This document shows positions 24,729 through 45,810 of a stretch of DNA of 64,000 nucleotides, one piece after another. Both the position numbers and the translations under genes were made by a program. Source of the stretch: Alkalicella caledoniensis (GTDB lineage: Bacteria > Bacillota > Proteinivoracia > Proteinivoracales > Proteinivoracaceae); contig NZ_CP058559.1 of assembly GCF_014467015.1 (NCBI RefSeq), positions 248,001 to 312,000 of the forward strand. The letters run 5' to 3'. The first letter of the stretch is position 1, and every line of letters begins with the position of its first letter. The notes under the pieces were generated by a model that was given only the letters and a program-made list of their open reading frames with translations, was not told where the DNA came from and did no database searches.

Positions 24729-26633
24729 ATCGAGTAGGAGGTAAATAATTATTTTATTTACCGTCCTCTCACACCACCGTACGTACCGTTCGGTATACGG
24801 CGGTTCATTAAGTTACTTGCATCTTCTGATATCTAGCCGTAAGGCTACTGTAAGAAATCGAGTTGAAATATTTGTAGTTAAGTGTTGTATGAAGTACAGG
24901 GCTTTTGGCTATACGCCAATAGCCCTTTCTTGTATTCCCCCATTCGAAGGCTTTATCTTTGGGGGTTCCAAGAGATACTAATTTCTTTATTTTCGTTTTT
25001 GACTTCTTCCATTGCTTCCATATACACATCCTCAATCTTCTACGAGTCCATTCGTCCAGTTTCTGCATGATGCTTTTCGCCTTAGCTATGGAGAAATAAT
25101 TTACCCAACCAGTTGTTACTTGATTGAGTTTCTTGATTCTTTCTTCCATACTTATGCTCCGCCTTCTGCTAGTTATGGACTTTATCTTTTCTTTGACTCT
25201 TCTTAAAGATTTCGGGTGGATTCTTATCTCATATTTACCCTTTGCTACATAGAAACTAAACCCAAGAAATTTTCTTTTCGTGGGTCTATCTACTGCACTC
25301 TTTTCTTTGTTTACTTTGAGCTTGAGTTTGTTCTCAAGAAAGTTCATTATGCTTTTCATAACTCTTTGTCCTGCTCTTTCTGACTTTAGGTATATGTTAC
25401 AGTCATCAGCGTATCTGCAGAATTTATGTCCTCTTTTTTCCAATTCCTTGTCGAAGTCATCTAGTAGTATGTTGGCAAGTAGTGGACTTAACGGTCCACC
25501 CTGGGGCGTTCCTTCTTCATTCTTGACACATATACCGTTTAACATAACTCCTGATTGTAGGTAGAGGCGGATAAGCTTTAATACTCTCTTGTCCTTTACT
25601 CTTCTAGATATCCTGTGCATTAGTATGTCGTGGTTTACCTTATCAAAGAATTTCTCTAGGTCCATATCCACTACATATTTATACCCTTCATTCATATATC
25701 CTCTTGCTTTATGAATGGCGTCGTGAGCTTTCCTTCCTGGTCTGAAACCAAAGCTACTTTCAGAAAAGTGGGGGTCAAATACTTGATTTAATACCTGTGC
25801 TATGGCTTGTTGGATAAACCTATCAAGTACCGTTGGTATTCCTAACAACCTTTTCCCTCCATCTGGTTTTGGTATCTCTACTCTTCTTACAGGTTGGGGT
25901 TTATATGTACCCTTTAATATACTATCTCTTGTGGGTTTCCAGTTTTCCCTTAGGAAAGGACGAAGTTCATCGACCTTCATTCCATCGATTCCATGGCTTC
26001 CCTTGTTCTTTTCTACCCGTTTAAGGGCTTCAAGTACGTTTTTCCCAGATAGCATATCTTCTAAAAGCTTATTAGCTGATGCACTGGATGTCTCCTTTGT
26101 AGGTGCCATAGGTATGCTCGGCACTCTGCGTATACCTTCAGATTCCATCCTATTATTTACGCTAGAGCCTTCGCATGAAGTTTTCTGCTGTCTTTGCATA
26201 TCCTTTGAACCTTTCAAATTCTTCATCCTCCTTAATGTTCAATCCTTCCCAAGATATATGCATCTATCTTGGTACTATGACGTCTGCTGACTTCTCAAAG
26301 TTCAGCCATACATCACTGCATGGGTTGTTATTTCAAAATTCATCTCCATAACGTGTCCTTGAGACCTCCCCAGGTAAGTACGCTAACCTTCATCCCATAT
26401 ATCTCCCACATTTACTATGTAGGATTCGGGTAGTGTTGGACTTCGTTTTGTGTGGCAAACTCGTCCGTCCTAGATAGCCTTATATGTGGTTCGTGTTCCT
26501 CAGACCGGGATTTTGCCTAGGGCTTCCTTCAGATTCCACCTCACGGTGGACACCCTTGCCTTCGGCTAGTGGTTCCCACTACCAAGCCCACAGCGGACTT
26601 TCACCGCCAAGTTAACGCACATGCTGGGCGCAC
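24729..26633 (-). mobile_element. Group II intron (about 1.9 kb) with encoded maturase
   Basis: The 5' end on the minus strand reads GTGCGCCCAGCATG at 26633. The 3' end CCTACTCGAT at 24729 follows a domain V-like hairpin (24752-24797, with CCGCCGTATAC and GTACGGTGG arms and GTGTGAGAGG) and an AT-rich domain VI. The structured 5' region 26227-26633 holds domain I. The insertion point lies 4 bases after the T tract of an intrinsic terminator. That placement, with the absence of an endonuclease domain, favours bacterial class C; the class call is an inference. Confidence 0.88.
24808..26226 (-). CDS. ltrA: Group II intron reverse transcriptase/maturase
   Basis: 472 residues. RT blocks are complete, including SSFGFRPGRKAHDAI, GTPQGGPLSPLLANI and the catalytic YADD in FCRYADDCNIYL. 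The maturase X/GIIM domain follows (SMEERIKKLNQVTTGWVNYFS, then RRRLRMCIWKQWK). It ends without the HNH endonuclease domain of mobile class A/B introns. A start at TTG 26217 with GGAGG 8 bases upstream is as likely as the ATG. It promotes splicing and retrohoming of the host intron. The frame is intact, so the intron may be active. Confidence 0.95.
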   Translation of the reverse strand: MKNLKGSKDMQRQQKTSCEGSSVNNRMESEGIRRVPSIPMAPTKETSSASANKLLEDMLSGKNVLEALKRVEKNKGSHGIDGMKVDELRPFLRENWKPTRDSILKGTYKPQPVRRVEIPKPDGGKRLLGIPTVLDRFIQQAIAQVLNQVFDPHFSESSFGFRPGRKAHDAIHKARGYMNEGYKYVVDMDLEKFFDKVNHDILMHRISRRVKDKRVLKLIRLYLQSGVMLNGICVKNEEGTPQGGPLSPLLANILLDDFDKELEKRGHKFCRYADDCNIYLKSERAGQRVMKSIMNFLENKLKLKVNKEKSAVDRPTKRKFLGFSFYVAKGKYEIRIHPKSLRRVKEKIKSITSRRRSISMEERIKKLNQVTTGWVNYFSIAKAKSIMQKLDEWTRRRLRMCIWKQWKKSKTKIKKLVSLGTPKDKAFEWGNTRKGYWRIAKSPVLHTTLNYKYFNSISYSSLTARYQKMQVT

Positions 26634-32900: not shown

Positions 32901-33087
32901 CCTCTCTAATGGCAGTCTTAGGGCTTATCCCGTTTATGTATTCATAGAATACTAAAGAGATAGTTTGTCCACCCTAGCAAGCAATTTAAAACTGTTTACC
33001 CTTTTATTCGACATAACCTTGTATTTTCCTTCAGAATGAATAAAAGTAATCCTATAGCATGCCACACCACACCACACAAAAAAACAA

Positions 33088-33420
33088 ACACCCCAACCCA
33101 CCCTTGCGCTAAGCCAAATACAAACTAGCTTAACTACTTGAGATAAATTGAGGGTGTTTACCCTTTGATGAATCCTAGCTTACACTCCAGAATTGCTCCA
33201 GAGGCTAAAGTGTACACCCCAACCCACCCAGGTACTAAGCCAAATGTAAACTAGCTTAACTACTTGAGATGAATTGAGGTGTCTATCTTTAATGAACTCT
33301 ACCTTACACCGCAGAGTTGTACCAAGGCTAAAGAGAACACCCCAACCACCCCAGCGCTATGCCAAATACAAACTAGCTTACCTTCTTGAGATGTATTGTG
33401 GTGTTACTTTCATAATTATT
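33088..33420. repeat. Tandem non-coding repeat, about 123-126 bp, 2.7 units
   Basis: Units start at 33088, 33214 and 33337 with ACACCCCAACC and share AGCCAAAT, AACTAGCTTA and TTGAGATGAATTG-like blocks. Units 1 and 2 also share a TTACAC ... CCAGAGGCTAAAG second half. No reading frame persists. A single copy of the first half lies at 23174. The remaining 32901-33087 is featureless. Confidence 0.85.
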
Positions 33421-37428: not shown

Positions 37429-37505
37429 TGGTCGGACTGACAGGATTTGAACCTGCGGCCCCTACACCCCCAGCGTAGTGCGCTACCAAACTGCGCTACA
37501 GTCCG
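37429..37505 (-). tRNA. tRNA-Pro (anticodon GGG)
   Basis: 77 nt on the minus strand with encoded CCA. The acceptor CGGACTG pairs with CAGTCCG; the D arm is GTAGCGCAG...; the anticodon stem CTACG/TGTAG holds loop CTGGGGG (anticodon GGG); the T arm contains GGTTCAAATCC. All arms close. Confidence 0.96.
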
Positions 37506-37618
37506 ACTTTTGACAAAGATTATAATACTACATAATATTTATTTTGTCAAGGGATTTTTGGCAGAAATCGCATTTCGCAGTTTGCAGTTTGCAGCTTGTT
37601 TAGGTTATTGATGGTTTT

Positions 37619-38250
37619 GTGGGTATACCCACGCTGAAGCATGGGCTACAATTGTTGAGGGGGTTGGTATTTTTTCTTGGTTGTCTGTTGGGGTTATTTT
37701 ATTTTTTTGTTGTGACCCAGCGTAGCAGTAGGACGAGTGAGTTTTAGGCCCAGCATGTTTACATGATGTAGGAGTTACGGTGAGCTAAATTTTGTTTTGT
37801 GGGTCTGCCTACGCTGAAGCATGGGCTACAATTGTTGAGGGGGTTGGTATTTTTTTATGGTTGGCTGTTGGGGTTGTTTTATGGTTTTTATTGGGACCCA
37901 GCATGTAGCAGTAGGACGAGTGAGTTTTAGGCCCAGCATGTTTACAGGATGTAGACGTTACGGTGAGCTGATTGGGTTTTTTGTTTTGTATTGCGGGTCT
38001 GCCCACGCTGAAGCATGGGCTACATTTGTTGGTGGTGGGGCTTTATTGAGGTGGGTTGTTGGGGTTGTTTTATTGGGACCCAGCATGTAGCAGTAGGACG
38101 AGTGAGTTTTGTCCCAGCATGTTTACAGGATGTGGAGGTTACGGTGAGCTGTTGGGTTTTTTGTTTTGTATTGCGGGTATGCCCACGCTGAAGCATGGGC
38201 TACATTTGTTGAGGGGGCGGGGCTTTGGTTGAGGGTGGGTTGTTGGAGTG
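37619..38250. repeat. Tandem non-coding repeat, about 180-194 bp, 3.4 units
   Basis: Units begin near 37619, 37799, 37993 and 38173 with G(T/C)GGGT(A/C)T(A/G)CC(C/T)ACGCTGAAG, followed by CATGGGCTACA (a CCCAcGCT/AGCaTGGG hairpin). Each then carries GTTGGGG, GACCCAGC, AGCAGTAGGACGAGTGAG, CCCAGCATGTTTACA and GTTACGGTGAGCT blocks. The fourth unit is partial. Stop codons and length changes exclude coding. A GCAGTTTGCAGTTTGCAG mini-repeat precedes it. Confidence 0.9.
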
Positions 38251-38261
38251 TGGGTAGATAG

Positions 38262-38292
38262 AAAAAATAAGCTGTTGACATAGGTCAACAGC
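38262..38292 (-). terminator. Terminator of spoIVA
   Basis: GCTGTTGAC/GTCAACAGC 9-bp stem with four-base loop, then TTATTTTTT on the minus strand, just beyond the spoIVA stop. Confidence 0.85.
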
Positions 38293-38300
38293 TTTTGTTG

Positions 38301-45481: not shown

Positions 45482-45810
45482 AGCTGAACGCTATCGGGTA
45501 TTTTCAGAGGGGTCGGCAGAACGCTTTTACGTATTTGCTTGGGGTCGGCGGAACGCTTTTAGGTTATTTCGGGGCGGTCGGTTGACAGGAAAAGCTTTTA
45601 AGGTAAAGGGATTTTTTAACCACTACTTCTCACTAAAGGGCTCGACACTATTAAAAGCAACCTTGCTGCCCGCAAAATGCACTTCCCTTAATCTCTTTTG
45701 ATTTTCCTAACCACCGACCTTCAAACAGCCCCGATAGCGTTCTGCAGTCCTCCATGTAGCTAATTAGCGTTCTGCAGACCTGCAAAACGGTCCCGATAGC
45801 GTTCCGCTTT
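45482..45810. repeat. Inverted-repeat element with internal 30-33-bp repeats
   Basis: Left arm 45482-45565 and right arm 45726-45810 are inverted. Each holds three copies of a roughly 32-base unit with core GCAGAACGCTATCGGG (left copies at about 45485, 45515, 45548; right copies reversed at about 45733, 45765, 45794). The 160-base centre is unique. The overall plan suggests a MITE-like element; no target duplication was made out. Confidence 0.65.

Follow-up and report, generated by a model that had tools for sequence, protein, structure and literature searches.

A head-to-tail cluster of GTAG REPs interleaved with solo arms of a second repeat beside spoIVA

What is the array of non-coding units of about 180 bp that lies next to spoIVA? 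The original prediction, made on the window (the whole stretch of 64,000 nucleotides analyzed here), described three full units and a partial one, each with a hairpin and with conserved islands separated by variable G/T-rich filler. It compared the hairpin to REP-like palindromes, and it suggested structured RNA or a protein-binding array rather than simple duplication. Here we determined that the array is a head-to-tail cluster of GTAG REPs. Between the REPs lie three solo half-copies of a second repeat that looks mobile.

In the array, four hairpin blocks, with another conserved block in each of the three intervals between them, alternate with faster-changing G/T-rich filler. A repeat search of the window placed the hairpin-block starts at 37614, 37794, 37988, and 38168, a spacing of 180/194/180, and found the second conserved block in three copies. 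The full extent is approximately 37609-38262, slightly wider than the 37619-38250 first noted, and the array has the top tandem-repeat score of the window (TRF score 629, 92% matches). The fourth unit is incomplete and stops against the spoIVA terminator, so the predicted composition of three full units and a partial one was borne out. The contrast between islands and filler also held up. Across units 1-3, with gap columns counted, identity is 90% in the REP island and 92% in the arm of the second repeat (the T arm) versus 69% in the filler (p = 3.5e-10 for islands against filler, computed from pairwise columns that are not independent). Between units 1 and 2, filler identity is 89%. The features of the array and its limits are listed below; R1 is the covariance model of the hairpin.

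37429..37505, minus strand: tRNA-Pro(GGG)
37522..37550, minus strand: sigma-70-like promoter of tRNA-Pro (TTGACA-17-TATTAT), one limit of the array
37614..37656, minus strand: GTAG REP copy 1 (TTGTAGCCCATGCTTCAGCGTGGGTATACCCACAA); R1 match of 61.0 bits, E 2.8e-9, the best in the genome
37657..37711, no strand: G/T-rich filler 1, the C/A-rich 5' flank of the minus-strand REP (alignment, composition)
37712..37790, minus strand: solo T arm 1, end motif AGCTCACCGTAAC plus two CATGCTGGG boxes; nhmmer 64 bits, E 3e-18
37794..37836, minus strand: GTAG REP copy 2 (one stem mismatch, GTAGG); R1 match of 58.3 bits, E 1e-8
37837..37891, no strand: G/T-rich filler 2 (alignment, composition)
37892..37972, minus strand: solo T arm 2; nhmmer 74.5 bits, E 2e-21
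37988..38030, minus strand: GTAG REP copy 3; R1 match of 55.9 bits, E 3.3e-8
38031..38074, no strand: G/T-rich filler 3, shortened (alignment, composition)
38075..38150, minus strand: solo T arm 3; nhmmer 75.4 bits, E 1e-21
38168..38210, minus strand: GTAG REP copy 4; R1 match of 53.7 bits, E 9.6e-8
38211..38262, no strand: G-rich filler 4, the end of the array at the spoIVA terminator (alignment, composition)
38269..38294, minus strand: intrinsic terminator of spoIVA (11 bp stem, T tail), the outer limit of the array

Three other elements were seen in the window. A second array at 33087-33404 has a 126-bp period and 2.6 copies, is built of CACCCCAACCCACCC and conserved TAAGCCAAATACAAACTAGCTTAACTACTTGAGATG blocks, and adjoins an ABC-transporter region. 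A short tandem array of 32-bp units (GAACGCTATCACGTATTTGCGAGGGGTCGGCA) occupies 45486-45581, and Rfam models of group II introns (Intron_gpII and two D1-D4 models) match 24729-26550 on the minus strand.

The hairpin is formed by CCCACGCT and AGCATGGG, as originally described. Read on the minus strand, the hairpin block consists of TTGTAGCC, a stem-loop with a 7-8 bp stem, and then GACCCACAA. GTAG is unpaired at the 5' foot of the short palindrome in all four window copies, with copies 3 and 4 reading ATGTAG, and TGTAG is invariant in an alignment of 33 family copies from this genome. In the same alignment, 95.7% of cells in the 7-bp stem are paired versus 75.3% in shuffles, a percentage that is inflated because the copies were chosen with a hairpin filter; slid-pairing controls gave at most 50%. 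Stem changes on both sides numbered 39 versus 15.6 in shuffles, with compensated changes of A-T to C-G, G-C to C-G, and U-G to G-C. The filtered selection is not the sole basis for the several alternative complementary stems. The stem of copy 2 is broken on folding, so not every copy folds well.

R1 gave 105 matches at E <= 0.01 in the 3.695 Mb chromosome, a count that includes the training copies of the model, so the hairpin is not a chance palindrome. The 34 sampled copies are intergenic, apart from one apparent exception, where a repeat array gives rise to a spurious ORF. Nine REPs lie head to tail at C1:185083-185670, the last eight with a 67-69 bp period; this array yields a spurious 326-aa ORF on the minus strand. 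R1 has no matches in 40 relatives. A plasmid search returned only a weak 44-nt match in enterobacterial plasmids, and searches of phages and of viral contigs returned nothing. We set aside a reading of the hairpin as an integron attC site, since it fits a REP fully.

The REP part of the array has the defining features of the GTAG REP superfamily that were tested. As in that superfamily, there is a GTAG foot on a short stem with a small loop, the copies are extragenic and occur as dimers and clusters, tandem reiteration takes in flanking DNA, and there are sub-families with alternative complementary stem bases (PMC3733652). GTAG REPs have been reported in Proteobacteria, Cyanobacteria, Chloroflexi, and the PVC group (Di Nocera 2013, PMC3733652); the word Firmicutes does not occur in that survey, whereas the host here is a spore-former. 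The units here also differ from those of the superfamily in containing the arm of a second element. Head-head or tail-tail pairs are the usual, though not defining, organization of GTAG REPs (PMC3733652). In contrast, the arrays in the window and at C1:185 kb run head to tail, while the REPs around the transposase gene described below do alternate in orientation. The head-to-tail order and the captured T arm are unusual features of this array.

REPs of this type are associated with REP-associated tyrosine transposases (RAYTs), and a RAYT-like gene was proposed as something to look for. The genome has 11 matches to Y1_Tnp, and one of them, at C1:2.8178 Mb, encodes such a protein. It is 157 aa long with HVH and YIHKNP motifs and scores 125.6 bits against the REP-associated tyrosine transposase model NCBIfam NF047646 (cut-off 80), versus a sub-threshold 43.1 bits against the IS200 model. 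More than 20 REPs of the same family surround the gene as an array, lying on both sides of it and alternating between two stem types. The further copies, the stem covariation, and this gene embedded in the same repeat family together uphold the proposed likeness to REP palindromes. Because the stems of the RAYT-adjacent REPs differ from those of the window copies, the link between the two is by family rather than by identical sequence.

The layout of a RAYT with its REPs is that of a REPtron (PMC3733652, PMC8266576). Like the REPtrons with TnpAREP (PMC2817692, PMC8266576), the locus encodes a Y1 transposase with HUH and YIHxNP motifs and has same-family REPs on both sides, with strand-specific polarity. 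Unlike those REPtrons, the RAYT here sits amid a long array in which REPs with two types of stem alternate. Relatives of this RAYT in the scanned genomes are distant. Among those that match over most of their length, the closest comes from an unassigned bacterial MAG and is only 40% identical; most of the other relatives are from Bacteroidota or Planctomycetes. No R1-type REPs were found around 26 RAYT relatives from other phyla or around four other Y1 genes of this genome, and therefore the REP family is local. A second RAYT-like Y1 gene (L054:1341-2020) is flanked by a different family of GTAG hairpins (GTAGGGGGTCCCCTTGTGGGGCCC). Y1 transposase-like proteins are also encoded at C1:1215571 and C1:1234534 (L049 and L050). 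The 313-aa L049 protein has a C-terminal match to the DnaA helix-turn-helix domain (PF08299) just below the cut-off, and there are no R1 REPs around its gene.

The orientation of the REPs follows replication, as expected for a transposase acting on single-stranded DNA. The window lies on the replichore with a minus coding strand, because dnaA is at 1.927 Mb and the GC skew and coding strand both flip near 3.65 Mb. With matches collapsed to loci, REPs are on the minus strand at 13 of 16 loci of this replichore (13:3) and on the plus strand at all 12 resolvable loci of the other, where two were ties (Fisher p = 1.5e-5). The GTAG strand is therefore the lagging-strand template, the reported substrate of IS608-type Y1 transposases (PMC6006769). 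Nearly everywhere sampled, genes run in the direction of replication, so polarity is confounded with gene orientation and gene direction is another possible cause of it.

The second conserved block is one arm of a second, MITE-like element, which we call T. From outside to inside, the arm has AGCTCACCGTAAC and then two CATGCTGGGTC boxes about 35 nt apart. Seven complete T elements with inverted arms were found, non-coding and 198-253 bp long (for example, C1:183223-183422), and the T profile gave 67 matches in the stretches searched. In the window, the three arms are solo. There are 77 T boxes in the genome, nearly all at 134-394 kb and 3.475-3.661 Mb, around the replication terminus. Like the bacterial MITEs Bcr1, ERIC, and RUP (PMC3733652), T is a non-coding, multi-copy, intergenic element of about 200-250 bp with inverted arms. 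It differs from them in that each arm carries two long direct boxes and in that arms also occur solo. The ends of the seven elements show no clear target-site duplication and have A/T-rich flanks, no parent transposase with the same terminal repeats was recognized, and an exact-pattern scan of the genome-contig collection for the T module gave no match.

Two family members, G002 and G004, carry relatives of T whose ends are TTGGCCAC. In G004, 46 exact GACCCAGCATGTARC boxes at C1:424073-2578730 are fully polarized, 25 on the plus and then 21 on the minus strand, with a single flip: all are plus below 1.2835 Mb and minus above 1.2865 Mb. We rejected a polarity flip exactly at the terminus of G004, since the flip at 1.285 Mb is about 100 kb from the GC-skew terminus at approximately 1.39 Mb.

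T arms also keep company with genes of the GxxExxY family (TIGR04256/PDDEXK_3; PD-(D/E)XK-like). The six such genes here (C1:165875, 177662, 188528, 196524, 3665275, and 3681412) lie at 165-197 kb or 3.665-3.681 Mb, the terminus-proximal, T-arm-rich end of the chromosome. For two of them a T arm is no more than about 100 bp away, and the last lies about 20 kb from the nearest recognized box. The single GxxExxY genes of G002 (C1:1683928) and G004 (C1:1282478) lie among T arms, so in each of the three family genomes with GxxExxY genes, T-arm-rich stretches contain them or lie close by. At C1:177 kb, in G002, and in G004, the gene sits on an arm's inner side, and the stop of the ORF at C1:177626 falls within a T arm. 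We rejected a canonical T element with the GxxExxY gene inside it, as the arms face the gene inconsistently across loci.

The site itself bears on the origin of the array. In G001, whose SpoIVA is 85% identical, the gap between spoIVA and tRNA-Pro is 113 bp, versus 795 bp here, and holds no such repeats. G002 retains the tRNA-Pro after spoIVA, and the array is absent. The array is bounded by the spoIVA terminator on one side and by the tRNA-Pro promoter on the other; no promoter was found inside it, and an Rfam scan of the window matched no family to it. Based on the empty G001 site and this placement in a tolerant gap, the array looks like a lineage-specific insertion rather than a conserved regulatory element or an RNA gene. 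No host function is indicated for it.

We think it likely that the array, four GTAG REPs with three solo T arms and filler, was inserted and expanded here through RAYT-mediated spread and local multiplication. A RAYT (Y1/HUH transposase) similar to that at 2.818 Mb would recognize the GTAG-foot hairpin as single-stranded DNA, as TnpAREP requires a single-stranded REP and GTAG (PMC8266576), and probably spread the REPs around the chromosome. The cluster would then have been inserted and expanded in this lineage, in the gap from the spoIVA terminator to the tRNA-Pro promoter. The 180-bp period would come from local multiplication of a composite block of REP, filler, and T arm, through recombination, slippage, or further rounds of RAYT action. 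Each island is the core of one of two genome-wide repeat families, hence its apparent conservation, whereas the low-complexity filler drifts fast. Tandem REP clusters carrying segments of flanking DNA have been described for known families (PMC3733652), and therefore no new principle is needed.

The closest competitor is a plain tandem duplication, in which unequal recombination or slippage took a chance block of REP and T arm to about 3.5 copies and a RAYT played no part in forming the array. This is a possible though less probable account. It draws on the regular 180-bp period, on filler homology that is still recognizable between units 1 and 2, and on the similar head-to-tail REP array at C1:185 kb, and duplication of a single REP and T arm with no recent RAYT action fits the array equally well. 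However, the divergence between islands and filler is not uniform and the components belong to dispersed families, so this account covers the period and leaves the source of the components unexplained. The original contrast with simple duplication is thus only partly right: the islands are cores of genome-wide families, but tandem reiteration of a composite block is the best account of the 180-bp period. The structured RNA also proposed, a non-coding or cis-regulatory RNA built of repeated modules, is very unlikely. The stem covariation across the REP family includes G-U pairs, but covariation is equally expected for REPs recognized as single-stranded DNA hairpins. The position after a terminator and upstream of a tRNA promoter, with neither an internal promoter nor an Rfam match, T arms that fold no better than shuffled sequence, and the absence of the array at the syntenic G001 site all speak against an RNA.

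A protein-binding array with a host function in nucleoid, terminus, or gyrase binding, with the CATGCTGGGTC boxes as sites for a chromosomal protein, is improbable, though less so than the RNA. The boxes are concentrated around the replication terminus here and strongly polarized along the G004 chromosome, and binding of DNA polymerase I to REPs elsewhere, and of gyrase and IHF to composite REP elements (BIMEs), has been reported (PMC2817692). However, the boxes are paired inside inverted-arm elements typical of mobile DNA, their copy numbers and sequences vary greatly among relatives, and the G004 flip misses the GC-skew terminus. This part of the original prediction may hold only in the sense that REPs would be substrates of a RAYT.

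The finding shows that an anaerobic-looking spore-former with SpoIVA has a GTAG REP/RAYT population whose polarity is linked to replication and which includes a clear REPtron; this is a range extension relative to the groups of the PMC3733652 survey only. The T element and its GxxExxY company are a more open lead than the REP part. It is doubtful, though slightly less so than a protein-binding role, that T arms are a new mobile or chromosome-organizing repeat system linked to GxxExxY (PDDEXK_3) nucleases that cut at or spread CATGCTGGGTC boxes; if true, the GxxExxY protein would be the enzyme that does so. The distribution of T around the terminus and its association with GxxExxY genes offer a testable lead to the function of a widespread family with almost no literature.
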